A stretch of 64,000 nucleotides of DNA from Anaerotruncus massiliensis (ex Togo et al. 2026) (GTDB taxonomy: Bacteria > Bacillota > Clostridia > Oscillospirales > Ruminococcaceae): contig NZ_LT962687.1 of the NCBI RefSeq assembly GCF_900199635.1, positions 1,225,501-1,289,500 on the forward strand. The letters are read 5' to 3'. The notes under the pieces were generated by a model that ran no database searches, was not told the DNA's origin, and saw only the letters and a list, made by a program, of their open reading frames with translations. Position numbers and translations under genes: made by a program. Each line of letters begins with the position of its first letter. The stretch's first letter is position 1. Shown piece by piece: positions 3,848 through 22,827 of the stretch.

Positions 3848-6061
3848 GTGACAGATGAAAAAAAAGTCGGTGGAAAATTGACCGACGAACAGCTCGGCAT
3901 GGGGCTTGACGCGCTCGAAAAGCGTTCGGTCGTCGAACGCGGCGCGCAGAAGAAAAAGCCCCGGCAGCCGGTGAAAGAGGCCGCGGCCAAGCTGATCCAG
4001 AAGGCGCTCCCCAAAGCGGAGACGCCGAAAAAAGCCGCGCCCAAATCCTCTGAGAAGCAGGGGAACGGCGCCGCCAGGGCGCAGAATGAAAAACAGGACG
4101 CGCCCCAGAAACAGCAGAAGCAGCCCAAGCAGGGCGCCAAGCAGCAGGCGGGCAAACAGCAGGCCCCGAAGCAGCAGGCGCCCAAGCAGGCCGCGAAACA
4201 GCCCGCGGCCCCGAAGTCCGCGGCTGCCAAGCAGGCGCCGAAGGCGCCGAAAAAGTCTTCCAGGGGCGGCAAAAAGGCCCCGGTGGTCGTCGGCGCGACG
4301 ATCGAGCTTTCCGAGCCGGGCAAGGCCCGCCAGGCGGCCGAGGCGCGCCAGGACGCGGCCAAACAGCAGGGCCGCAGGCGCAAGGGCCAGAAGGAACAGC
4401 GCAAGACCCCGGTGCGCGTCATCCCTCTGGGCGGCCTTCTGGAGGTCGGCAAGAACGTGACGGTCTACGAGTGCATGGACGACATGTTCCTCGTCGACTG
4501 CGGCATGACCTTCCCGGATGAAAACATGCTGGGCGTCGACCTCGTGCTGCCCGACTTCACTTATGTGATGAAAAACCGCGACAAGGTGCGCGGCATCGTC
4601 ATCACCCACGGCCACGAGGACCACATCGGCGCGCTGGCCTACTTCCTCAAGCAGCTCAACGTCCCCGTCTACGCCACCCGGCTGACCCTCGGGCTCATTG
4701 AGAACAAGCTGCGCGAGCACGGACTCTACGGCAAGGTCAAGCTCGTGCAGATCGCTCCGCAGGAGACGATCAAGCTCGGCTGCTTCGAGGTCGAGTTCAT
4801 CCGCGTCAACCACTCGATCCCCGACGCGGTCGCGCTGGCCATCCACACCCCGGCGGGCGTCATCATCCAGACGGGCGACTTCAAAATCGACTATACGCCG
4901 ATCATCGGCGACATCATCGACCTCGCGCGGTTCGGCGAGCTGGGCGGCAAGGGCGTGCTCGCGTTGCTGTCCGATTCGACCAACGCCGAGCGCCCCGGCT
5001 TCACCCCCACCGAGGTGACGGTCGCCGAGAGCTTCGACAAGCTCTTCAAGCAGGCGGAGCATAAGCGGATCATCGTTGCGACCTTCTCGTCCAACATCCA
5101 CCGCATGCAGCTTGTCTGCGAGGCGGCCGCGAAATACGGCCGCAAGGTCGCCGTCTCCGGCCGCAGCATGGTCAACACCGTGCTCGTCTCGACCGAGCTC
5201 GGCTACCTCAAGCCCCCCGAGGGCGTCATGATCGACATCGACGACATCAACCGCTACCGCCCCGAGGACGTCGTCCTCATCACGACGGGCAGCCAGGGCG
5301 AGCCGATGAGCGCGCTTTCGCGCATGGCGTCGGGCGACCACCGCAAGGTGTCGGTCACCGCGAACGACTTCATCATCATCAGCGCCAACCCCATTCCCGG
5401 CAACGAAAAGACGGTCGGCCGCGTCGTCAACGACCTGATGCGGCTGGGCGCCGACGTGATCTACGAGCGGATGTACGAGGTGCACGTCTCGGGCCACGCC
5501 TGCCAGGAGGAGCTGAAGATCATGCTCGCGCTCACCAAGCCGAAGTTCTTCTTCCCGGTGCACGGCGAGTATAAGCAGCTCAAGCGCCACGCCGGCCTCG
5601 CGCTGGCGATGGGCATCCCGCCAGAAAACATCTTTATCGGCGAGAACGGCCACGTCTTCGAGCTCGACGGCGTGTCGGTCAAGACGGGAGAGATCGTCCC
5701 GTCCGGGCGCATCCTCGTCGACGGCCTCGGCGTCGGCGACGTCGGCAGTATTGTGCTGCGCGACCGCAAGCATTTGGGCGAGGACGGCCTCATCGTGGTG
5801 GTCACCACCATCGACGGGACCAACGGCCAGATCGTCGCGGGCCCGGACATCATCTCGCGCGGCTTCGTCTACGTGCGCGAGGCGGAGGATATGCTCGCCG
5901 AGGCGCGCACCGTCGCCAAGCAGACGATCGAAGGCTGCACCAAAAAGCATGTCAGCGACTGGGGCAACCTCAAAACGCAGGTGCGCGATTCCCTTTCTTC
6001 CTATTTCTACAGCCGCACCAAGCGCAGCCCGATGATCCTGCCGGTCATCCAGGAGGTCTAG
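3848..6061 (+). CDS. rnj: Ribonuclease J with long basic N-terminal extension
   Basis: Metallo-beta-lactamase/beta-CASP ribonuclease with endo- and 5'-exonuclease activity in mRNA decay and rRNA maturation. The GTG at 3848 is taken as start because GGAGG lies 7 bases upstream, giving 737 residues. The conserved enzyme begins near residue 191 (VIPLGGLLEVGKN). The metal motif HGHEDH is at 254-259, followed by NHSIPD, TGDFK, the beta-CASP segment TGSQGEPMSALSRMA, HVSGHA and the HGEY loop. RNase J is usually about 555 residues; the extra ~190 at the front are rich in Lys, Gln, Ala and Pro with near-repeats such as KQQAPKQQAPKQ, and are probably disordered and RNA- or protein-binding. No second RNase J gene is in the window. 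Confidence 0.96.
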   Translation: MTDEKKVGGKLTDEQLGMGLDALEKRSVVERGAQKKKPRQPVKEAAAKLIQKALPKAETPKKAAPKSSEKQGNGAARAQNEKQDAPQKQQKQPKQGAKQQAGKQQAPKQQAPKQAAKQPAAPKSAAAKQAPKAPKKSSRGGKKAPVVVGATIELSEPGKARQAAEARQDAAKQQGRRRKGQKEQRKTPVRVIPLGGLLEVGKNVTVYECMDDMFLVDCGMTFPDENMLGVDLVLPDFTYVMKNRDKVRGIVITHGHEDHIGALAYFLKQLNVPVYATRLTLGLIENKLREHGLYGKVKLVQIAPQETIKLGCFEVEFIRVNHSIPDAVALAIHTPAGVIIQTGDFKIDYTPIIGDIIDLARFGELGGKGVLALLSDSTNAERPGFTPTEVTVAESFDKLFKQAEHKRIIVATFSSNIHRMQLVCEAAAKYGRKVAVSGRSMVNTVLVSTELGYLKPPEGVMIDIDDINRYRPEDVVLITTGSQGEPMSALSRMASGDHRKVSVTANDFIIISANPIPGNEKTVGRVVNDLMRLGADVIYERMYEVHVSGHACQEELKIMLALTKPKFFFPVHGEYKQLKRHAGLALAMGIPPENIFIGENGHVFELDGVSVKTGEIVPSGRILVDGLGVGDVGSIVLRDRKHLGEDGLIVVVTTIDGTNGQIVAGPDIISRGFVYVREAEDMLAEARTVAKQTIEGCTKKHVSDWGNLKTQVRDSLSSYFYSRTKRSPMILPVIQEV

Positions 6062-6068
6062 GGCGCGC

Positions 6069-6162
6069 GTGCTTTTGGCTCCCGCCCAAAAGCACGTTAA
6101 GGAGGGCCGGGCAGTCCCGCCCGGCGCGCCTCATGGAGGGGGCCGGGTCGTCCCCCTCCATG
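6069..6162. repeat. Cluster of perfect hairpins after RNase J
   Basis: Three inverted repeats follow the RNase J stop in tandem. GTGCTTTTGG pairs with CCAAAAGCAC (6069-6095), GCCGGGC pairs with GCCCGGC (about 6106-6124), and CATGGAGGGGG pairs with CCCCCTCCATG (6132-6162). None has a T-tract, so they are not terminators by themselves; the terminator comes after them. They may protect or mark the RNase J mRNA 3' end. Confidence 0.6.
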
Positions 6163-6189
6163 GACCACCCTCTGATGAACTGCATACAG

Positions 6190-6222
6190 AAGCGGCCGCC
6201 CGATTGGGCGGCCGCTTTGTTG
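6190..6222 (+). terminator. Rho-independent terminator after RNase J
   Basis: AGCGGCCGCCC pairs with GGGCGGCCGCT across a four-base loop, followed by TTGTTG. The T-tract is weak but the stem is very stable. Confidence 0.7.
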
Positions 6223-6266
6223 CGTGGTTGGAAGATTTAAATAAGGGGACGAATGGGCGGGGGAGG

Positions 6267-6608
6267 CTAATAGGCGAGGGCGGGGTCGAGCTTTTCCGCC
6301 CACAGCTCGCCGAGCGCGGCGAGGTCGGCGCGGAACTCCTCGGGCGTCTGGGTCTCCTTCTGGGTGAGCTCGTCGAGCACCTCGAAGACGAAGGCGTCCC
6401 TGCCGCACGCCTTCCAGTCGGCGGAGAGCTTGTGCCAGTTGCAGCAGTCGGTCATTTGGGAAAACTCGAATTTGCCCTTGGAGCCGGAGAGGTTCGTTTC
6501 GGCGGCCAGCAGGTAGCGGCCGTTCCGGGTGTTGCGGATGATGTAGACGCCGCCCGAAAGGGGACGGCTCTTGTAGGCGTTCAGCAGCTCCTTTTTATGC
6601 GCGTCCAT
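6267..6608 (-). CDS. GIY-YIG-like small protein, probably non-nuclease
   Basis: 113 residues. The N-terminal part GGVYIIRNTRNGRYLLA has the spacing of a GIY-YIG nuclease domain, but the YIG element reads YLL and the later catalytic Arg/Glu pattern is not obvious, so cleavage activity is doubtful. The middle holds TDCCNWHKLSADW, the tail is acidic. Its ATG overlaps the stop of the upstream DUF6530-like gene by one base (TGATG), so translation is coupled and the two proteins probably work together. Similar pairs are, to my recollection, seen in other clostridia. Role unknown. Confidence 0.75.
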   Translation of the reverse strand: MDAHKKELLNAYKSRPLSGGVYIIRNTRNGRYLLAAETNLSGSKGKFEFSQMTDCCNWHKLSADWKACGRDAFVFEVLDELTQKETQTPEEFRADLAALGELWAEKLDPALAY

Positions 6609-7090
6609 CAGTATCCCATCTCCTTTAAGAGCCGCGCGAGGACGGAAAACCGCTCGCCGAGGCGTTCCCCCTCGTCGGAGAGGGCCTGGCTGAAGAGCTT
6701 GATGTCCTCCCCGATCATCGGGTTTTCGGTGCAGACCGAGACGGTCATCGCGTCCCCCTCGAGCCCCACCCGGTCGATGACCGGGTGCTCCGGGTCGTAG
6801 AATTCCGGGTGGCGGTAGCTCTCCTCGCGGAAGAACTGGCAGGCGCGGGCGGTGAGGATGGCCAGGTCGAGCACCCGGTGCAGGGGAAGCTCCTCCGACT
6901 GGCGGGACCACTTGCCGCCCGTGTGGCGCCACACCTTGGCGGAGATGTCGAGCTTCCCGCGGTCGTTCCACTGGGCAAGCCCGAGGGAGAGGCCCTTGGC
7001 GTCGGTTCCGGGGAAGCGGTGCTCATCGATCGCCTCGTAGTCCTCGACCGCGATGACGGGTTTATGTTTTAACGTTGTTGGGATGTTCAT
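6608..7090 (-). CDS. DUF6530-like conserved protein
   Basis: 160 residues, soluble, no signal peptide or membrane segment. It contains the block NTDAKGLSLGLAQWNDRG-like (here TDAKGLSLGLAQWNDRG) and ISAKVWRHTGGKWSRQSEE, which I recognise, without a search, as a Firmicute family of unknown function (DUF6530). The ATG at 7090 is preferred over one ten codons upstream because GGAGGATT lies just before it, while the upstream ATG falls inside the operator. It heads a two-gene unit with the GIY-YIG-like gene. The consensus promoter and palindromic operator suggest strong, tightly switched expression. Confidence 0.75.
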   Translation of the reverse strand: MNIPTTLKHKPVIAVEDYEAIDEHRFPGTDAKGLSLGLAQWNDRGKLDISAKVWRHTGGKWSRQSEELPLHRVLDLAILTARACQFFREESYRHPEFYDPEHPVIDRVGLEGDAMTVSVCTENPMIGEDIKLFSQALSDEGERLGERFSVLARLLKEMGY

Positions 7091-7102
7091 GGGGAATCCT
7101 CC

Positions 7103-7161
7103 ATTTACTAAATTAGTCATTTACTAATTTGAATTATAGCAGAGGCGCCCTCGCCTGTCAA
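7103..7161 (-). promoter_or_regulatory. Consensus promoter and palindromic operator of the DUF6530/GIY-YIG unit
   Basis: On the minus strand TTGACA (7161-7156), a 17-base spacer and TATAAT (7138-7133) match the sigma-A consensus fully. Just downstream, over the expected start of transcription, AAATTAGT (7110-7117) and ACTAATTT (7123-7130) form a perfect 8-base inverted repeat. ATTTACTA occurs twice as a direct repeat (7103-7110 and 7119-7126). This is the layout of a repressor operator. Confidence 0.8.
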
Positions 7162-7176
7162 GCGGCAGGTTGTGGA

Positions 7177-7205
7177 TTGCAACAGACGGGTGGACGTGAT
7201 ATAAT
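7177..7205 (+). promoter_or_regulatory. Promoter for gdpP
   Basis: TTGCAA (7177-7182), 17-base spacer, TATAAT (7200-7205) preceded by TGA, an extended -10. It runs divergently from the DUF6530 promoter, with only 15 bases between the two -35 boxes. Confidence 0.75.
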
Positions 7206-7272: not shown

Positions 7273-9246
7273 GTGAAGAAAAGTAATCATCCGTTCCAAT
7301 CCTTTTTGCTGATCGCAATCGGGTGCTGCGCGGCCGTCACGGTGGCCACGCTGTTCTTCAATATCCGGCTGTTTTATATCTGCGCGTTCGTCACGGTGGC
7401 GTGCGCGGTGCTGCTCGTGTGGCAGGTCCAGCTTGCCAAGCGGCAGATCAGCCGCTTCCTGGTCACGATGGGGCAGACGCTGACCACCGTGCAGCAGGAC
7501 GCGCTGACGGGGTTCCCCATCCCGGTGTTCGTGTGCAGCGGGGAGGGGGAGATCGTCTGGTGCAACCGCCTCGGGCAGAAGGAGATCCTCGGGGAGGAGA
7601 ACTGTTACGGCAAGAGCATCTACACCATCCTGACCGGCGTGGACATCACCCGGACCTGTCCCGAGGGCGGCTACGACACCGAATACAAGGGGCGGTTTTA
7701 CGCCGTCTACGTGGCGCGCGCGGTCAGCGAAGAGGAAGAGCTCTACATGGTGTACTTCTTCGAGAACACCGAGCTCAAGCGCTACGCGCGCGAATACTTT
7801 GAGACCCGCCCGTCGGTCATGCTGATCCTGGTGGACAACTACGAGGAGCTCCAGCAGAACATGAAGGACAACGAGCGCGCGCGGGTGATGGGCCAGATCG
7901 AATACGCGGTGAGCAAGTTCGTCACCGACAGCGGCGGGCTGCTGCTCAAGACCGAGCGCGACCGGTTCACCGCGGTGATGGAGGAGCGAAGCCTGCGCGG
8001 CGTCATTTCGGCGCGGTTCACCCTGCTCGAGCAGGTGCGCGCGATCGAGACGGAGACCAAGATGGTCCCGACCCTGTCGGTCGGCGTCGGCCGCGACGCG
8101 GCCACCCTGGAGGAGAGCGAGCGGTTCGCGCGCCAGGCGCTCGATATGGCGCTCGGGCGCGGCGGCGACCAGGCCGCGGTGCGGGGCGCGTCGGGCTACG
8201 AGTTCTTCGGCGGCGTCTCGAGCGGCATGGAGAAGCGCACCAAGGTCAAGACGCGCATCGTCGCGACCGCGCTCGCCGAGCTGATCTCCGGCAGCGACAA
8301 CGTGCTCGTCATGGGCCACCGCGCCGCCGACCTCGACTGCTTCGGCGCGTCGGTGGGCATCATGAAAGCCGCCCGCCTCATGGGCAAGGACGCCTACGTC
8401 GTCATCCGCAGGAACACCAACCTCGTGACGCTCGAATATGAGCGGCTGCTCCAGAACGGATTCGAGGGGATGTTCCTCGAGCCGGAGGACGCGCTGCCCA
8501 GAATCACCCGCAAGACGCTGCTCGTCATCTGCGACACCCACGTCAAGCACATCCTCGAGTCGGAGGCGGTCTTCGACGCCTGCAAGAACGTCGTCGTCGT
8601 CGACCACCACCGCAAGATGGTCGGCCACATCGACAACGCCGTCATCTTCTACCACGAGCCCTACGCGTCGAGCGCGTCGGAGATGGTCACCGAGCTGGTG
8701 CAGTATTTCGGCGACAAGCTGCGGCTCGGCCGCCCCGAGGCCGAGGCGCTGCTGGCGGGCATTATGCTCGACACCAAGAACTTCATCATCAAGACGGGGG
8801 TGCGCACCTTCGAGGCCGCGGCCTACCTGCGCAAGATCGGCGCGGATACGGTGGAGGTGCGGCGGATGTTCGCCCTGTCGATGGAGAGCTACCAGCGCCG
8901 CGCCAAGCTGGTCGCCAACGCGGAGGTCTACCGCGGCTGCGCGATCGCCGTGTCGCCCGACCGCGACGCGCCCGACATCCAGGTGACGGCGGCGCAGGCC
9001 GCGGACGAACTGCTCGGCATCATCGGCGTGCAGGCGTCCTTCCTCGTCTTTGAGATGAACGGCGGCGTGTCGATCTCGGCGCGCAGCATGGGGCAGCTCA
9101 ACGTCCAGATCATCATGGAAAAGCTGGGCGGCGGCGGGCACCTCACGATGGCGGGGGCGCAGCTTTCCGGCATGCCGCTCGACGAGGCGTACCGCAGGCT
9201 GGTCGCGGCGATCGACCAATACTTCGAGGAAAACAGCAGAAATTAG
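7273..9246 (+). CDS. gdpP: Cyclic-di-AMP phosphodiesterase, GdpP family
   Basis: Membrane-anchored enzyme hydrolysing c-di-AMP to pApA, which sets potassium and osmolyte balance and cell-wall tolerance. The GTG at 7273 has GAGG seven bases upstream and gives 657 residues, the family's normal length. Order: two N-terminal membrane helices (about 8-55), a degenerate PAS domain (about 70-150), a degenerate GGDEF domain (about 160-300) and the DHH-DHHA1 phosphodiesterase. The DHH motifs are present as [17 protein letters not shown] and VVVDHHRKM, with [10 protein letters not shown] in DHHA1. It is followed by rplI and dnaB as in many Firmicutes. Confidence 0.95.
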
Positions 9247-16813: not shown

Positions 16814-16837
16814 GGAACAACAAATGAGGTGACGGCA

Positions 16838-17596
16838 GTGAAACAGCGGGAATACCGGATTTTGGAGCTTTTGACCGAGCGCAAGCGGATCGAAGTGGCC
16901 GCGCTGGCGCGGGAGATCGGCGTTTCGCAGGTGACGGTCCGCAAGGACCTCGACGCGCTGGAGGAGAAGGGGGTCATCCACCGGGAGCACGGCTGGGCCG
17001 TGCTTTGCAGTCCGGACGACCTCAACGGGCGCATCGCCTACCACTATGAGGCGAAACGCCGCATCGCGGCGCGCGCGGCGGAGCTGGTGCGGGACGGCGA
17101 GACGGTCATGATCGAGAGCGGAAGCTGCTGCGCGCTGCTGGCGGACGCGCTGACGGGCGCGGGCCGGGATGTGACGATCATCACCAACAGCGCGTTCATC
17201 GCCGGGTACGTGCGGAGGAAGCCGGGCGCGAAGGTGATCTTGCTGGGCGGCGTCTACCAGAACGACGCCCAGGTGATGGTGGGGCCGCTTGTGCGGCAGT
17301 GCGCGGAAAACTTCTGCGTCGACCGGCTGTTCATCGGCACCGACGGCTACGCGAGCCGCAGCGGCTTCACCAACAGCGACCACCTGCGGGCGCAGGCGGT
17401 GCGGGATATGGCCGCGCAGGCGGAGGAGGTGGTCGTGCTGATGGAGAGCAGCAAGTTCGGGCGCCACGGCGTGGTGCCGCTCCAGCTCGCGGAGAAGGCG
17501 CGGACGGTGATCACCGACGACGGCATCCCGCCCGAAGCGCGCCATGAACTGGAGGCGCGCGCGGTCACGGTGCACACGGTGCCGGCAAACGAATAA
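16838..17596 (+). CDS. DeoR/GlpR-family transcriptional regulator
   Basis: 252 residues from the GTG at 16838, chosen for GAGG eight bases upstream (a GTG three codons earlier overlaps that site). The N-terminal DeoR winged helix reads KQREYRILELL, IGVSQVTVRKDLDALEEKG and REHGWAV. The C-terminal DeoRC domain has the sugar-phosphate pocket style of the family: DGETVMIESGSCC, TIITNSAFIAGYV and LFIGTDGYASRSGFTN. Such proteins usually repress sugar catabolism and release DNA on binding a sugar phosphate. The sugar cassette starting 50 bases downstream on the other strand is the obvious candidate target, but that is inference. Confidence 0.92.
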   Translation: MKQREYRILELLTERKRIEVAALAREIGVSQVTVRKDLDALEEKGVIHREHGWAVLCSPDDLNGRIAYHYEAKRRIAARAAELVRDGETVMIESGSCCALLADALTGAGRDVTIITNSAFIAGYVRRKPGAKVILLGGVYQNDAQVMVGPLVRQCAENFCVDRLFIGTDGYASRSGFTNSDHLRAQAVRDMAAQAEEVVVLMESSKFGRHGVVPLQLAEKARTVITDDGIPPEARHELEARAVTVHTVPANE

Positions 17597-17640: not shown

Positions 17641-18540
17641 TTAGAAGAAGGCGTCGATCCCGCCGTCGAGGAACCGCCGCCGGTAGTCCTCCAAATCCTC
17701 CTCGTGCAGCGCGTCCGCACCGGAATAGGCGTAGGCGCGCCCGAGCAGGGCGTATTTTTTCTCGCCGAACTGGTGGAAGGGGAGCAGCTGCACCCGCGAA
17801 AGGCCGGCCTCCCGGAGAAGGCGTCGGAAGCCGTCCGCGTCCGCGGGCGCGTCGTTATAGCCGGGGATGACCGGAATCCGGGGGAGCACCTCGCTTCCGG
17901 AGGCGGCGGCCCACCGCAGGTTGTCGAGGATTGCGCGGTTGGAGACGCCCGTCCCCGCGACATGCCGTGCCTCGTCCCAGTGCTTCACGTCGAAGAGCAG
18001 CAGGTCCGCGAGCGCCGCCGCCCGGTCGAAGTCGGCGGCGGGCGCGTACCCGGTCGTCTCGATCGCGGTGTGGACCTTTCGCTCCCGCAGCGCCCCGAGC
18101 AGCGCGGCGCAGAAATCGGGGTGCATGAGCGGTTCGCCGCCCGAGAGCGTCACCCCGCCGCCGCTCTCCTCGTAGAAGGGCTGGTCCTGCATGCAGACGC
18201 GCAGCACCTCCTCCGCGGATTTCCACGACCCCTCACAGGAGAGCGCCCGCGCCGGGCACTGCCGCACGCAGGCCCCGCACCCCACGCAGGCCGTGGGGTC
18301 GATCCGCACCCCTTCGGCGCCGAGCGCGGCCGCCCCCCGCGGGCAGGCGCGCGCGCATCCGCCGCAGCGCAGGCATTGCCCGCCGTCCCACAGAATCTGC
18401 ATGTCGGGGCTCTGGCTTTCCGGGTTGGCGCACCACGCGCAGCGCAGCGGGCAGCCCTTCAAGAACACGACGGTGCGGATGCCCGGCCCGTCGTGCAGGC
18501 TGAACTTCTGGAGATTGAAAATCAGGCGCTTCTCGCCCAT
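17641..18540 (-). CDS. Glycyl radical enzyme activating protein (radical SAM)
   Basis: Radical SAM enzyme that abstracts hydrogen from the glycine of a partner glycyl radical enzyme. From the ATG at 18540 it has 299 residues. The SAM-cluster motif CPLRCAWC gives Cys30, Cys34 and Cys37. Two ferredoxin-type clusters follow, CLRCGGCARACP and CVGCGACVRQCP, the insertion typical of activases of non-classical GREs (YbiY, CutD, HpdA type). The SAM motif SGGGVTLSGGEPL is intact. It is transcribed divergently from the ROK-GRE-aldolase operon whose GRE it should activate. Confidence 0.93.
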   Translation of the reverse strand: MGEKRLIFNLQKFSLHDGPGIRTVVFLKGCPLRCAWCANPESQSPDMQILWDGGQCLRCGGCARACPRGAAALGAEGVRIDPTACVGCGACVRQCPARALSCEGSWKSAEEVLRVCMQDQPFYEESGGGVTLSGGEPLMHPDFCAALLGALRERKVHTAIETTGYAPAADFDRAAALADLLLFDVKHWDEARHVAGTGVSNRAILDNLRWAAASGSEVLPRIPVIPGYNDAPADADGFRRLLREAGLSRVQLLPFHQFGEKKYALLGRAYAYSGADALHEEDLEDYRRRFLDGGIDAFF

Positions 18541-18571
18541 GGGAACGCCCCCCCCTCGTTTGTCTGGCTCC

Positions 18572-18611
18572 ATTGTAGCACGGGGAAGCCCAAAAGTAAA
18601 CGAAAACTTAC
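18572..18611 (-). promoter_or_regulatory. Activase promoter overlapped by a GTAA/TTAC inverted repeat
   Basis: Minus-strand TTTACT (18600-18595), 17-base spacer, TACAAT (18577-18572). GTAA (18596-18599) and TTAC (18608-18611), eight bases apart, overlap the -35 box and may be an operator half of the divergent regulatory region. Confidence 0.6.
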
Positions 18612-18647
18612 GAATGAAATATCATAAGATTTTGTACAGAAATACAA

Positions 18648-18718
18648 TTGACATTCTTTGGGGAGATTGCTACAATGAAATTGCAAACGAATGGGTAAAT
18701 ACTTACGAACGAATTTAC
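18648..18718 (+). promoter_or_regulatory. Promoter and candidate operator of the ROK-GRE-aldolase operon
   Basis: TTGACA (18648-18653), 17-base spacer, TACAAT (18671-18676), close to consensus. Just after the expected start of transcription GTAAAT (18695-18700) and ATTTAC (18713-18718) form an inverted repeat. CTTACGAA occurs at 18607-18614 and again at 18702-18709, flanking the promoter. This fits a repressor that holds both divergent genes. Confidence 0.7.
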
Positions 18719-18742
18719 TTGACAGCAGGGAGGAGCGGCCGC

Positions 18743-19693
18743 ATGGAACAGTATGTAATCGGCGTTGACGTGGGCGGGACCAAGACGGCGTACGGCGTGT
18801 TTGACGGCGCGGGACAGATCGTGGCGCGCCGCCGCTGCCGATCGGACGATTCTCTTTCCCCCGAGGCGTTTTTCGACGGCGTCGCCGCCAACGTGCGGGA
18901 GCTGATGGAGGAGGCGGGGATCGCCCCGGGAAACCTGCGCGGCGTGGGCATCGGGATGCCCTCCTTCATCCTCTTCGAGGAGGGGCGGATCGTCAAGACC
19001 ACCAACCTGACGAAGATCCGCGACTTCCCGGCGCGCGCCTACCTGATGGAGAAGCTCGGCGGCGCGCGGGTGCTGCTCGACAACGACTCCCACACCGGCG
19101 CGCTGGCGGAATTCCGCCACGGCGCGGGGCGCGGCTTCCAGAACATCGTCTACTGCCCGGTGAGCACCGGCATCTCGTCGGGCATCGTCATCGACGGCAG
19201 GCTCTTCCGGGGCCGGTACGGCTGGTCGGGGGAGAGCGGGCACATGATCGTCACGCCCGGCGAGGGGATCGAGTGCGGCTGCGGCAACCGCGGCTGCCTC
19301 ATGAGCTGGTGCTCCGGCTCGATGATCGTCCGGCACATCCGAAGCTGGATCGCGGCGGGCGAACCGACCGTCATGGCCGAGCTGGCGGGCGGGGCGGAAA
19401 AGATCACGGCGGTGCACCTCCGGCAGGCGTGCGGGCTGGGGGACGCGATGGCGCTGCGTGCGCTCGGGCAGATGGCGAAGTTTTTGGGCATCTGGCTCTA
19501 TAACCTCTATGTGACCCTCAACATCAACTGCTTCATCTTCGGCGGCGGGCTGACCGGCTTTGGGGAACTGCTCTTCGGACGCGTGCGCGAGGTGTTCGAC
19601 GGCTATAATCATAACGATATGCCCGTCTACTTCAAGATGGCGGAGCTTGAACACGATTTCGGCGTCATCGGCGCGGCCGAGCTGTTCTATTGA
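18743..19693 (+). CDS. ROK-family sugar kinase
   Basis: 316 residues; the ATG at 18743 has AGGGAGGAG upstream. The ATP-binding signature GVDVGGTKTAYG is at 7-18. The ROK zinc motif appears as CGCGNRGCL, and NDSHTGALAEFRHGAG carries the catalytic Asp region. There is no N-terminal DNA-binding domain, so it is a kinase and not a ROK repressor. It phosphorylates a hexose-like substrate, usually at O6. Here it is the first gene of an operon with a glycyl radical enzyme and an FSA-type aldolase, which suggests it prepares the GRE's substrate. Confidence 0.9.
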   Translation: MEQYVIGVDVGGTKTAYGVFDGAGQIVARRRCRSDDSLSPEAFFDGVAANVRELMEEAGIAPGNLRGVGIGMPSFILFEEGRIVKTTNLTKIRDFPARAYLMEKLGGARVLLDNDSHTGALAEFRHGAGRGFQNIVYCPVSTGISSGIVIDGRLFRGRYGWSGESGHMIVTPGEGIECGCGNRGCLMSWCSGSMIVRHIRSWIAAGEPTVMAELAGGAEKITAVHLRQACGLGDAMALRALGQMAKFLGIWLYNLYVTLNINCFIFGGGLTGFGELLFGRVREVFDGYNHNDMPVYFKMAELEHDFGVIGAAELFY

Positions 19694-19707
19694 AAGGAGA
19701 ACCCGAT

Positions 19708-22110
19708 ATGAGTTATTTTGGAGAGCTTACCCCGCGCATGGCGGCCTTCCGCGAGGAGCTGCTGAACGCGAAGCCGCAGGTTTGCGTCGAGCGCGCGGTG
19801 ATCACCACCCGCGTCTACCGCGAGCGGCAGGACCAGCCGCTCGCCCTCAAGCGCGCGATCATGCTGCGCGAGGTGCTTGCGGGCATGTCGATCTTCATCG
19901 AGCCGCAGACGCTGATCGCCGGAAACCAGGCGTCGAGCAACCGCAGCGCGCCGATCTTCCCCGAGTACGCGATGTCGTGGGTGATCGACGAGCTCGACGA
20001 GTTCGAGCGCCGGGACGGCGACGTCTTTTACATCACGGAGGAGAATAAGCGGAAGCTGCGGGAGATCGCGCCCTTCTGGGAGCACAACACGGTGCTCGAC
20101 AGGGGCCTCGCGGCCTTCCCGCCCCACTCGAGGCTCTACTATGACCTCGGCATCATCAAGTCGGAGGGCAACATCACCTCGGGCGACGCGCACTGCGCGG
20201 TCAATTACGGCGACATGCTGCGGGCGGGCCTCGGGGACTATAAGCGCCGCGCGGAGGAAAAGCTCGCCGCGCTCGACCTGACCGACTACCGCAATATCCA
20301 CAAGAGTTATTTCTACCGCGCGGTCGTCATCGTGGTGGACGCGGTGCGCGCCTTCGCCAGGCGGTACGCCGACCTCGCCTTCCAGACGGCGCAGGAGGAG
20401 CCGGACGAAGCCCGCCGGGCGGAGCTCCTGGAGATGAGCCGGATCCTCAACAAGGTGCCCTACGGGCCGGCGGAGAGCTTCCGGGAGGCCGTGCAGGCCC
20501 TCTGGCTCACCCATCTCGTGCTCCAGATCGAATCGAACGGCCACAGCCTCTCCTACGGGCGGATGGACCAGTACCTCGACCCCTACTACGAGGCGGACCT
20601 CGCCGCCGGAAGGATCACCGCGGCGCAGGCGGATGAGCTGCTCTGCAACCTCTGGCTCAAGACCTACACGATCAACAAGATCCGCTCGTGGAGCCACACC
20701 CAGTTCAGCGCGGGCAGCCCCCTCTACCAGAACGTGACGATCGCGGGCCAGACCCCCGACGGGCGGGACGCGACCAACCCGATGAGCCGGCTGATCCTCC
20801 AGAGCGTGGCGCAGTGCCGCCTGACCCAGCCCAACCTGACCGTGCGCTACCACAGGGGGCTTTCCGACGAATTCATGCGCGAATGCGTCGAGGTGGTGCG
20901 CTGTGGGTTCGGAATGCCCGCCTTCAACGACGACGAGGTGATTATCCCCTCCTTCATCGCCAAGGGAGTGAAGCCGGAGGACGCCTACAACTATTCGGCG
21001 ATCGGCTGCGTCGAGACGGCGGTCCCCGGGAAGTGGGGCTACCGCTGCACCGGCATGAGCTTTTTGAACTTCCCCAAGGCGCTGCTCATCGCGATGAACG
21101 ACGGCGTCGATCCCGCGTCGGGCACCAGACTCTGCGAGGGGGCGGGGCATTTCCGCGATATGGAGAGCTTCGACGAGGTGAAAGCCTGCTGGGACAAGGT
21201 TATCCGCGAGATGTGCCGCCAGTGCACGGTCATCGACGCGACCTGCGACATGGTGCTCGAGGAGAACACCGCCGACATCCTCTGCAGCGCGCTCACCGAC
21301 GACTGCATCGAGCGCGGCCTCAACATGAAGGAGGGCGGCGCGGTCTACGACTTCATCAGCGACCTGCAGGTGGGCATCGCCAACCTGGCCGACAGCCTCG
21401 CCGCCGTCAAAAAGGTCGTCTTCGAGGACGCAGCGGTCACCCCGGCACGCCTGTGGGAGGCGCTGGAACAGAACTTCGAGGGACCGGAAAACGAGCGCAT
21501 CCGGGCGCTCCTACAGGCCGCGCCCAAGTACGGCAACGACGACGACTATGTTGACAACCTCGTTGTGGACGCCTACAATGTCTACATCGACGAGATGAAG
21601 AAATACCACAACACCCGGTACGGGCGCGGCCCGATCGGCGGAATCTACTACGCGGGCACCAGCTCGATCTCGGCCAACGTCCCGCAGGGCGCGGGCACGC
21701 TGGCGACCCCCGACGGCCGCAGGGCGGGCGAGCCGTTGGCCGAGGGGTGCTCCCCGAGCCACGCGGCCGACAGAAACGGCCCGACGGCGGTCTTCAAGAG
21801 CGTCTCCAAGCTGCCCACCGGGGAGATCACGGGCGGCGTGCTCCTGAACCAGAAGGTCACCCCGCAGATGCTCCAAAAGGAGGAGAACCGCGAGAAGTTG
21901 GTCCTGCTGCTGCGCACCTTCTTCAACCGCCTCCACGGCTACCACGTGCAGTTCAACGTTGTCTCGCGCGACACCCTGCTCGACGCGCAGGCCCACCCCG
22001 AAAACCACCGCGACCTCATCGTGCGGGTGGCTGGGTACAGCGCCTTCTTCAACGTCCTCTCGCGCAGGACGCAGGACGACATCATCGAGCGCACCGAGCA
22101 GGCCCTGTAA
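19708..22110 (+). CDS. Glycyl radical enzyme, PflD/YbiW-like
   Basis: 800 residues from the ATG at 19708, AAAGGAG eight bases upstream. The thiyl-radical cysteine is Cys434 in SAIGCVETAVPGK; the GCVE pattern is shared by C-O and C-N lyases of the family. The radical glycine is Gly776 in VRVAGYSAFF, 24 residues from the C-terminus, as usual. The N-terminal PFL domain includes GDAHCAVNYGDML and PYGPAESFREAVQALWL. It is not a pyruvate formate-lyase by context: next to it are a ROK kinase, an FSA-type aldolase and a two-cluster activase, the set found around E. coli YbiW. Anhydrosugar-phosphate lyase is therefore the favoured activity; other GRE dehydratases remain possible. Confidence 0.92.
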   Translation: MSYFGELTPRMAAFREELLNAKPQVCVERAVITTRVYRERQDQPLALKRAIMLREVLAGMSIFIEPQTLIAGNQASSNRSAPIFPEYAMSWVIDELDEFERRDGDVFYITEENKRKLREIAPFWEHNTVLDRGLAAFPPHSRLYYDLGIIKSEGNITSGDAHCAVNYGDMLRAGLGDYKRRAEEKLAALDLTDYRNIHKSYFYRAVVIVVDAVRAFARRYADLAFQTAQEEPDEARRAELLEMSRILNKVPYGPAESFREAVQALWLTHLVLQIESNGHSLSYGRMDQYLDPYYEADLAAGRITAAQADELLCNLWLKTYTINKIRSWSHTQFSAGSPLYQNVTIAGQTPDGRDATNPMSRLILQSVAQCRLTQPNLTVRYHRGLSDEFMRECVEVVRCGFGMPAFNDDEVIIPSFIAKGVKPEDAYNYSAIGCVETAVPGKWGYRCTGMSFLNFPKALLIAMNDGVDPASGTRLCEGAGHFRDMESFDEVKACWDKVIREMCRQCTVIDATCDMVLEENTADILCSALTDDCIERGLNMKEGGAVYDFISDLQVGIANLADSLAAVKKVVFEDAAVTPARLWEALEQNFEGPENERIRALLQAAPKYGNDDDYVDNLVVDAYNVYIDEMKKYHNTRYGRGPIGGIYYAGTSSISANVPQGAGTLATPDGRRAGEPLAEGCSPSHAADRNGPTAVFKSVSKLPTGEITGGVLLNQKVTPQMLQKEENREKLVLLLRTFFNRLHGYHVQFNVVSRDTLLDAQAHPENHRDLIVRVAGYSAFFNVLSRRTQDDIIERTEQAL

Positions 22111-22143
22111 CGCCGATCAATTGACCGAAAGGGAGTTTTCAAT

Positions 22144-22827
22144 ATGTATGAACTGATGCTTGACACCGCGAATCTGGAAGATTTGAAGGAGGGACTGGAC
22201 AGCTGGCCGGTCGTCGGCGTGACCTCCAACCCCACGATCCTGAAGGAGGAGGGCGGGATCGACGTCTACGCCCGCCTGCGGGAGATCAAGGCGCTCTGCG
22301 GAAAAAAGCGCAGCCTGCATGTGCAGGTCGTCTCCACCGCCACCGACGCGATCCTGGAGGAGGCGCGCCACATCCTCGATCAGCTCGGGAAGGACACCTT
22401 CATCAAGGTCCCGGTCAGCGCCGCGGGCCTGCCCGCCATCAAAAAGCTCTCCGCCGGGGGGGTGAACGTCACCGCCACGGCGATCTATTCGACGATGCAG
22501 GGGATGCTCGCCGTACTGGCGGGCGCGAAGTACATCGCGGTCTATTTTAACCGCATGGAGAATAACTGCACCGATCCCACGCGGGTCATCGCGGAGATCC
22601 GCGCGTTCATCGACGGCAGCGGCAGCGGCGCGAAGATCCTGGCCGCCAGCTTCAAGAACGCCGCGCAGGTCGTCTCCGCCTACGCGAGCGGCGCGCAGGG
22701 CGCCACCGTGGGCGCCGACATCATCCGCCTGGGGCTGGGCATGACCAGCATCGACAGCGCGGTGGACGGCTTCCGGAAGGATTTTGAGGCGATCCATGGT
22801 GCGGGCAAGACGATGTCGACGATCTGA
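22144..22827 (+). CDS. Fructose-6-phosphate aldolase / transaldolase-like protein
   Basis: 227 residues, the length of FSA/TalC and far shorter than a full transaldolase. It opens with MYELMLDTANLEDLKEGL and GVTSNPTIL. The Schiff-base lysine is Lys88 in FIKVPVSAAG, against Lys85 in E. coli FSA. TATAIYSTMQG and ILAASFKNAAQV are also FSA-like. It ends the operon, 33 bases after the GRE. In E. coli the same aldolase family works after YbiW, cleaving 1-deoxyfructose-6-phosphate to glyceraldehyde-3-phosphate and hydroxyacetone. Confidence 0.92.
   Translation: MYELMLDTANLEDLKEGLDSWPVVGVTSNPTILKEEGGIDVYARLREIKALCGKKRSLHVQVVSTATDAILEEARHILDQLGKDTFIKVPVSAAGLPAIKKLSAGGVNVTATAIYSTMQGMLAVLAGAKYIAVYFNRMENNCTDPTRVIAEIRAFIDGSGSGAKILAASFKNAAQVVSAYASGAQGATVGADIIRLGLGMTSIDSAVDGFRKDFEAIHGAGKTMSTI

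Follow-up and report, generated by a model that had tools for sequence, protein, structure and literature searches.

The window, the 64,000-nucleotide stretch of DNA analysed here, carries a five-gene cassette that we read, with a probability of roughly 0.7, as a regulated variant, independent of a phosphotransferase uptake system (PTS), of the radical-mediated pathway for fermentation of 1,5-anhydroglucitol (AG), a food sugar that resembles glucose. Its genes, all intact, encode a DeoR-family regulator, a glycyl radical enzyme (GRE) activase, a ROK kinase, a YbiW-type GRE and an FSA-type aldolase (Table 1). This reading is built on the observed genes, motifs, clade membership, genomic linkage and a shared regulatory motif, from which we infer, for this organism, the enzymatic steps, the means of uptake and the inducer. 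Free AG would enter through a non-PTS transporter encoded elsewhere, and the ROK kinase would phosphorylate it at O6 with ATP. The activase would put a glycyl radical on the YbiW-type enzyme, which would open AG-6-phosphate to 1-deoxyfructose-6-phosphate, and the aldolase would split the latter into hydroxyacetone and glyceraldehyde-3-phosphate.

The reactions of the lyase and the aldolase are already known; what looks new is the kinase clade and its signature. An open-access literature search returned no title or start of an abstract naming such a kinase; the text or supplement of the original pathway paper may mention one. That paper, on the radical-mediated AG pathway of E. coli, is reportedly Ma et al. 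2024. As described in PMC12441222, the E. coli pathway consists of YbiW, its activase YbiY and FsaA; YbiW cleaves AG-6-phosphate to 1-deoxyfructose-6-phosphate, and the phosphate is supplied by a PTS. The same source states that AG is present in nearly all analysed foods and that AG-6-phosphate is the toxic metabolite of two inherited neutropenias.

Layout, recurrence and regulation of the cassette

An initial annotation had described the activase, kinase, GRE and aldolase genes as one unit. All four were recovered where it had placed them, intact, and the unit proved to be larger, with the DeoR gene also belonging to the conserved set. The route had also been called self-contained, a description that has to be dropped, as the unit includes neither a sugar transporter nor a hydroxyacetone reductase or GldA-type gene.

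Table 1. Genes and regulatory elements of the cassette, in window coordinates.
Feature	Coordinates	Strand	Basis
DeoR-family regulator	16829..17596	+	DeoRC 3.1e-43, HTH_DeoR 1.3e-13
Two-cluster GRE activase (radical SAM and two ferredoxin-type clusters)	17641..18573	-	TIGR02494 336.5 bits vs cut-off 174.35
Putative operator copy 1, AAACTTACGAATGAAA	18604..18619	+	In G059 and G337 the exact reverse complement sits immediately before the -35 box
Sigma-70-like promoter upstream of the kinase gene, TTGACA-17 bp-TACAAT	18648..18676	+	Read from sequence
Putative operator copy 2, downstream of the promoter	18699..18714	+	13/16 identical to copy 1, by eye
ROK kinase, candidate AG 6-kinase	18743..19693	+	Pfam ROK 1e-50; residue survey; tree
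YbiW-type GRE, candidate AG-6-phosphate lyase	19708..22110	+	Bit scores; YbiW clade; conserved positions
FSA-type aldolase, candidate 1-deoxyfructose-6-phosphate aldolase	22144..22827	+	NF009299 268.9 bits vs cut-off 214

The activase is of the two-cluster type, as had been proposed, with Pfam matches to Radical_SAM (1.2e-17) and Fer4/dicluster domains and a TIGR02494 score above the cut-off. The same set of five genes, arranged as the activase followed by DeoR, ROK, GRE and FSA, recurs in G059 and G337, two genomes from a single genus that belongs to a different family within the order, which indicates that the grouping is not due to chance. The GREs of the window and G059 share 87% identity as proteins and about 80% as DNA. 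Among ten other genomes of the window's own genus, a GRE match at E 1e-100 or better was found only in G007, at 38% identity. Recent transfer, as judged from base composition, was rejected, since the cassette is much like its surroundings. In an empty-site comparison with relatives from the genus, the orthologues of the flanking PfkB and RuvC genes lie more than 150 kb apart or on separate contigs.

The 169 bp between the activase and kinase genes hold the promoter and both putative operators. In G059 and G337 the DeoR gene directly precedes ROK, GRE and FSA, and many of the surveyed loci have a DeoR homologue close to their GRE. The closest NCBIfam profiles for the window regulator are YciT and AgaR, and both score under their cut-offs. 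It is reasonable to predict that the 16-bp motif is likely a DeoR operator and that DeoR is probably a repressor of the cassette responsive to a sugar phosphate, acting through the two sites around the kinase promoter and released by that inducer.

A YbiW-type glycyl radical enzyme and an FSA-type aldolase

The GRE (800 residues from an ATG at 19708) matches the Pfam PFL-like (1.9e-204) and Gly_radical (PF01228, 1.4e-34) domains, and the motifs of the catalytic cysteine and of the radical glycine are present at Cys434 and Gly776, the residues named in the initial annotation. It had been called YbiW/PflD-like, and only the first half of that label stands. When compared with proteins of solved structure, the GRE scores 897 bits with two YbiW entries and 896 with 6xs4 (named formate C-acetyltransferase), versus 580 with glycerol dehydratase, 542 with diol dehydratase, 516 with choline lyase, 466 with PflD and 442 with HypD; among E. 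coli proteins, YbiW is 53% identical to it and PflD 37%. The comparison of classes that had been suggested as a check groups it with YbiW, away from the others: glycerol dehydratase, choline lyase and HypD were ruled out by score, and PflD by score, identity and tree. In a tree of 80 GREs, made by a quick method with SH-aLRT support only and after 12 enterobacterial and other gammaproteobacterial GREs had been thinned out, the window GRE lies inside a supported clade with YbiW. At the 215 positions that are near-invariant among 78 YbiW-clade GREs (the window GRE being one of these 78 rows, and 14 more distant GREs having been set aside by hand), it shows 0 deviations. At 33 of these positions the common residue is found in no more than one of eight outer GREs, and the window GRE matches them all. 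The enzyme is thus YbiW-type and, judged by these comparisons, a candidate AG-6-phosphate lyase.

One could argue that the YbiW-like GREs of the window's subclade have come to act on another 6-phosphate and that 53% identity does not allow YbiW chemistry to be transferred, given that E. coli YbiW belongs to a sister branch and that GREs switch reaction between clades. We hold this to be highly improbable, since not one of the 215 near-invariant positions deviates and both sides of the tree show linkage to an FSA-type aldolase, with E. coli on one and the window and others on the other.

The aldolase matches Pfam TAL_FSA at 1.2e-38 and has the Lys88 that was claimed for it. Aligned with FsaA and FsaB, it keeps all active-site residues, including the Schiff-base lysine; those of FsaA we take to be Asp6, Asn28, Gln59, Lys85, Thr109, Tyr131, Arg134 and Ser166. 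The genome gives eight matches to PF00465 (iron alcohol dehydrogenase), of which seven exceed the cut-off, and a hydroxyacetone reductase could be among them.

Other GREs were met along the way. Three more PFL-like matches lie in the same genome (G000:C7 23586-24995, 2263984-2265345 and 2205762-2207105). A fragment at G305:C1:931570-932130 is 68% identical to residues 1-187 of the window GRE and is interrupted by a single in-frame stop; it appears to be a YbiW-type gene in decay. At about 10001-17300 in L046 and L057, the YbiW-type GRE, FSA and activase are followed by a second, distant GRE (31-34% identity) and a GFO/IDH/MocA-type oxidoreductase (Pfam checked for L046). L093 and L094 carry two tandem GREs, 37-42% identical to the window GRE and forming a sister group; Rbs-type ABC transporter genes lie near those of L093.

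A ROK kinase with methionine in place of the zinc-motif acid

The kinase (316 residues from an ATG at 18743) was correctly assigned to the ROK family, with a PF00480 match at 1e-50 and intact motifs. The family is characterized by DxGxT, a catalytic aspartate and ExGH, and some published ROK kinases have no zinc motif (PMC5458393). The window protein keeps DxGGT, catalytic Asp115, ExGH and the cysteines of the zinc motif CxCGxxGCx(E/D), the final acid of which is replaced by Met187. Its score with the ROK glucokinase profile TIGR00744 is 172.1 bits, under the cut-off of 260.35. A role as a ROK repressor was ruled out: Pfam finds no N-terminal DNA-binding domain, and the kinase motifs are intact. 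A single-sequence structure prediction reached a mean pLDDT of 42.6, and no use was made of the model.

Seventeen ROK proteins of this Met type were found: those of the window, G059, G337, G268, G429, G143 and G617 and those of the ten loci listed below. All 17 have DxGxT, the catalytic aspartate and ExGH, and Asp9, Asn114, Asp115, Glu164, His167 and the zinc cysteines are conserved throughout. Position 187 is methionine in 17/17, versus glutamate in eight, glutamine in three and aspartate in two of 13 other ROK proteins. The only group-specific residues (in at least 16 of the 17 and at most one of the 13) are Asp113, Met187 and Ser188. In the ROK tree, the 16 Met-type proteins included are one side of a single branch with support 98/96. 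The repressor-type, partial L091 protein and the L076 fragment were left out of both tree and residue survey, the BglK-like proteins of L034 and L038 were excluded from the survey, and ROK matches from the own genome without ExGH were excluded from the tree.

What the missing acid does in related kinases is suggested by several studies. The equivalent Asp187 of PsNagK (P. shigelloides NagK) binds GlcNAc, and D187N raises KM (PMC10031466); the equivalent residue of the human GNE kinase is Glu588 (PMC2742894, PMC5458393). Asp141 of MurK, which recognises the C1 hydroxyl (PMC10465942), would by our inference correspond to the same acid. For E. coli glucokinase, PMC13133996 places the equivalent Glu187 at O5/O6, not O1, and the catalytic Asp100 at O3; the latter placement sits badly with phosphorylation at O6. 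By analogy, the acid replaced by Met187 is a sugar-binding residue in related kinases and probably lies at the anomeric hydroxyl. If it does hold this hydroxyl, its loss fits AG, because AG has none, and the kinase is probably specialised for this substrate.

The ROK kinase 4htl likewise has no acid at this position, carrying Asn172 instead (PMC5458393), and is a beta-glucoside kinase by its PDB name. This would agree with a sister pathway whose kinase and GRE use a different sugar with a substituted or deoxygenated anomeric position, such as 1,5-anhydromannitol or some other anhydrohexitol, or a beta-glucoside. The GRE argues against it, as it has every near-invariant residue of the 78 YbiW-clade enzymes and just 37% identity to PflD; we consider such a pathway distinctly unlikely and prefer AG as the substrate.

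Linkage of Met-type kinases to YbiW-type enzymes

The association extends well beyond the cassette. We searched genomes with a nucleotide pattern of the Met motif, designed after the first 12 sequences were known, which variants can escape. It matched 8 of 391 genomes in a sample of the class and 10 of 398 in a sample of the phylum, or 16 distinct genomes (the samples share 15 genomes and comprise about 774 distinct ones). Seven of the 16 have the match in a ROK gene and nine in non-ROK sequence. In 7/7 of the Met-type ROK matches, a YbiW-type GRE lies on the same contig, at most about 9 kb off. The search for GREs covered the class sample and a set of ten genomes. A GRE matching at E 1e-180 or better is present in thirteen of the 391 class genomes; in eight of these the identity is at least 64%, and six of the eight have the Met kinase, the others (G179 and G201) being without a Met-type match. 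In the five class genomes whose GRE reaches only 42-47%, the kinase pattern found no match.

A survey of GRE loci, restricted to the best 80 of at least 574 confirmed stretches with YbiW-like GREs, located a Met-type ROK near the GRE in ten (L020, L021, L022, L023, L026, L054, L059, L060, L080 and L086). L054 and L086 have a second ROK of the acid type besides it. The flanks of these 10/10 loci, some of them short, contain no FSA match. Overall, ROK kinases near YbiW-type GREs were seen in Spirochaetota, Bacillota, Bacteroidota and Chloroflexota. Nor is the ROK partner always of the Met type: L096 (GRE 44%) has one with the motif GCLQM and L097 (GRE 41%) one without the zinc motif, and L091, described below, has a repressor-like one.

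The main alternative for the kinase is that a PTS encoded elsewhere imports and phosphorylates AG, the ROK protein being a salvage or general hexose kinase placed in the operon by chance. In E. coli the published route relies on a PTS (PMC12441222), and the genome has three PF05524 (PTS enzyme I family) matches, which make PTS delivery possible; absence of a PTS was accordingly rejected as an explanation for the kinase. Nevertheless, in the pattern searches the Met-type kinase occurs only near YbiW-type GREs (7/7), and Met-type kinases are found in several phyla. Among the 16 PF00480 matches of this genome, the Met pattern occurs once, in the cassette ROK gene. Moreover, a PTS and a Met-type ROK were never found together near the GRE in the surveyed loci, for the PTS families used as queries, and none of the queries (lac IIA/IIB/IIC, FrwC, ManY, ManZ, AgaC and AgaD) found a PTS gene within 10 kb of the window GRE. 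Taken against these observations, this alternative is unlikely. The proposal that a dedicated ROK kinase takes the place of a PTS is supported by the comparison of sequences, namely the 7/7 linkage, the YbiW clade and the use of PTS or other ROK proteins as substitutes.

In six loci (L020, L022, L054, L086, L140 from G268 and L141 from G429) the Met kinase has genes of an Rbs-type ABC transporter nearby. Such a transporter was rejected as a candidate for the window organism, since its genome has no good orthologue of the binding protein, the best-scoring RbsB match being 27% identical.

Several minor observations concern the same loci. In L091, from a Planctomycetaceae MAG, a repressor-like partial ROK (GCLEV) lies upstream of a GRE with 75% identity, either a recent transfer or a binning error. 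Pieces 32-44% identical to the window ROK lie near a YbiW-type GRE and activase in a Gilliamella MAG (L076, about 8333-8868) and may be what remains of a ROK kinase from the branch that contains E. coli YbiW. A beta-propeller lactonase (PF10282) lies near the Met-type kinase in both L022 (5902-7059) and L080, where it is joined by a GFO/IDH/MocA oxidoreductase (together at 4982-7189); these enzymes possibly make or prepare the anhydrosugar.

Proposed exchange of the phosphorylating enzyme and comparison with known systems

On the GRE tree, Met kinases occur on basal and nested branches, with at least seven changes, a spread that suggests an old association, as far as a quick tree with hand-set labels allows. 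On that tree, 53 of the 80 rows are unlabelled for Met-, PPGK- or BglK-like kinase or PTS; they include distant GREs, L091, L096 and L097, loci with short flanks and any loci with a PTS family outside the queries. Elsewhere, other phosphorylating enzymes stand near the GRE: lac-family PTS genes in L078 and L090, ManYZ-like PTS genes in L045 and a BglK-like ROK in L034 and L038 (L034 compared with structures).

We hypothesize that the Met187 clade is a dedicated family of AG 6-kinases that reject glucose through the methionine standing for the acid at the anomeric hydroxyl, and that it is an old partner of YbiW-type GREs, present in at least four phyla and later swapped for a PTS or for other acid-less ROK proteins. 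We give this broader proposal slightly better than even odds. If true, a dedicated bacterial kinase would open AG use to anaerobes without a suitable PTS and point to a broader reach of the radical pathway, into Spirochaetota, Bacteroidota and Chloroflexota. It would also provide a sequence signature for naming AG kinases in genomes, and Met187 would offer a one-residue, testable account of how a sugar kinase discriminates against glucose.

The closest known system is the E. coli AG pathway, which shares a YbiW-type GRE (53% identity), an activase and an FSA-type aldolase with the cassette. The window differs from it in having an operon-encoded ROK kinase instead of a PTS, another gene order and a DeoR regulator. 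The PflD/Frw PTS locus of E. coli, for the 1,5-anhydromannitol branch, has the same class of chemistry and a linked aldolase; however, a PTS and gldA are linked there and absent here, and PflD, to which the window GRE is 37% identical, falls outside the YbiW clade. The DeoR-PTS-GRE-FSA-GldA loci of Streptococcus and Enterococcus (L029, L031, L061 and L084) resemble the cassette in DeoR, activase and FSA, and their GREs are 63-64% identical to that of the window, but they have lac-family PTS genes (IIA/IIB/IIC) and a GldA-like gene near the GRE and FSA, and no match to the window ROK.

On the kinase side, the ROK glucokinases (2qm1, 3vgk; TIGR00744) share with the window protein the family, the ATP motif, the catalytic aspartate, ExGH and the zinc cysteines, whereas the window kinase lies under the TIGR00744 cut-off and has Met187 instead of glutamate. 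In two actinomycetotal loci (L024 and L025), a ROK of the polyphosphate glucomannokinase (PPGK) type directly adjoins the 3′ end of a YbiW-type GRE gene. This is a separate ROK lineage, and it has cysteine at the position aligned with the acid of 1woq, the polyphosphate/ATP glucomannokinase (by alignment for L024, read from the sequence for L025).
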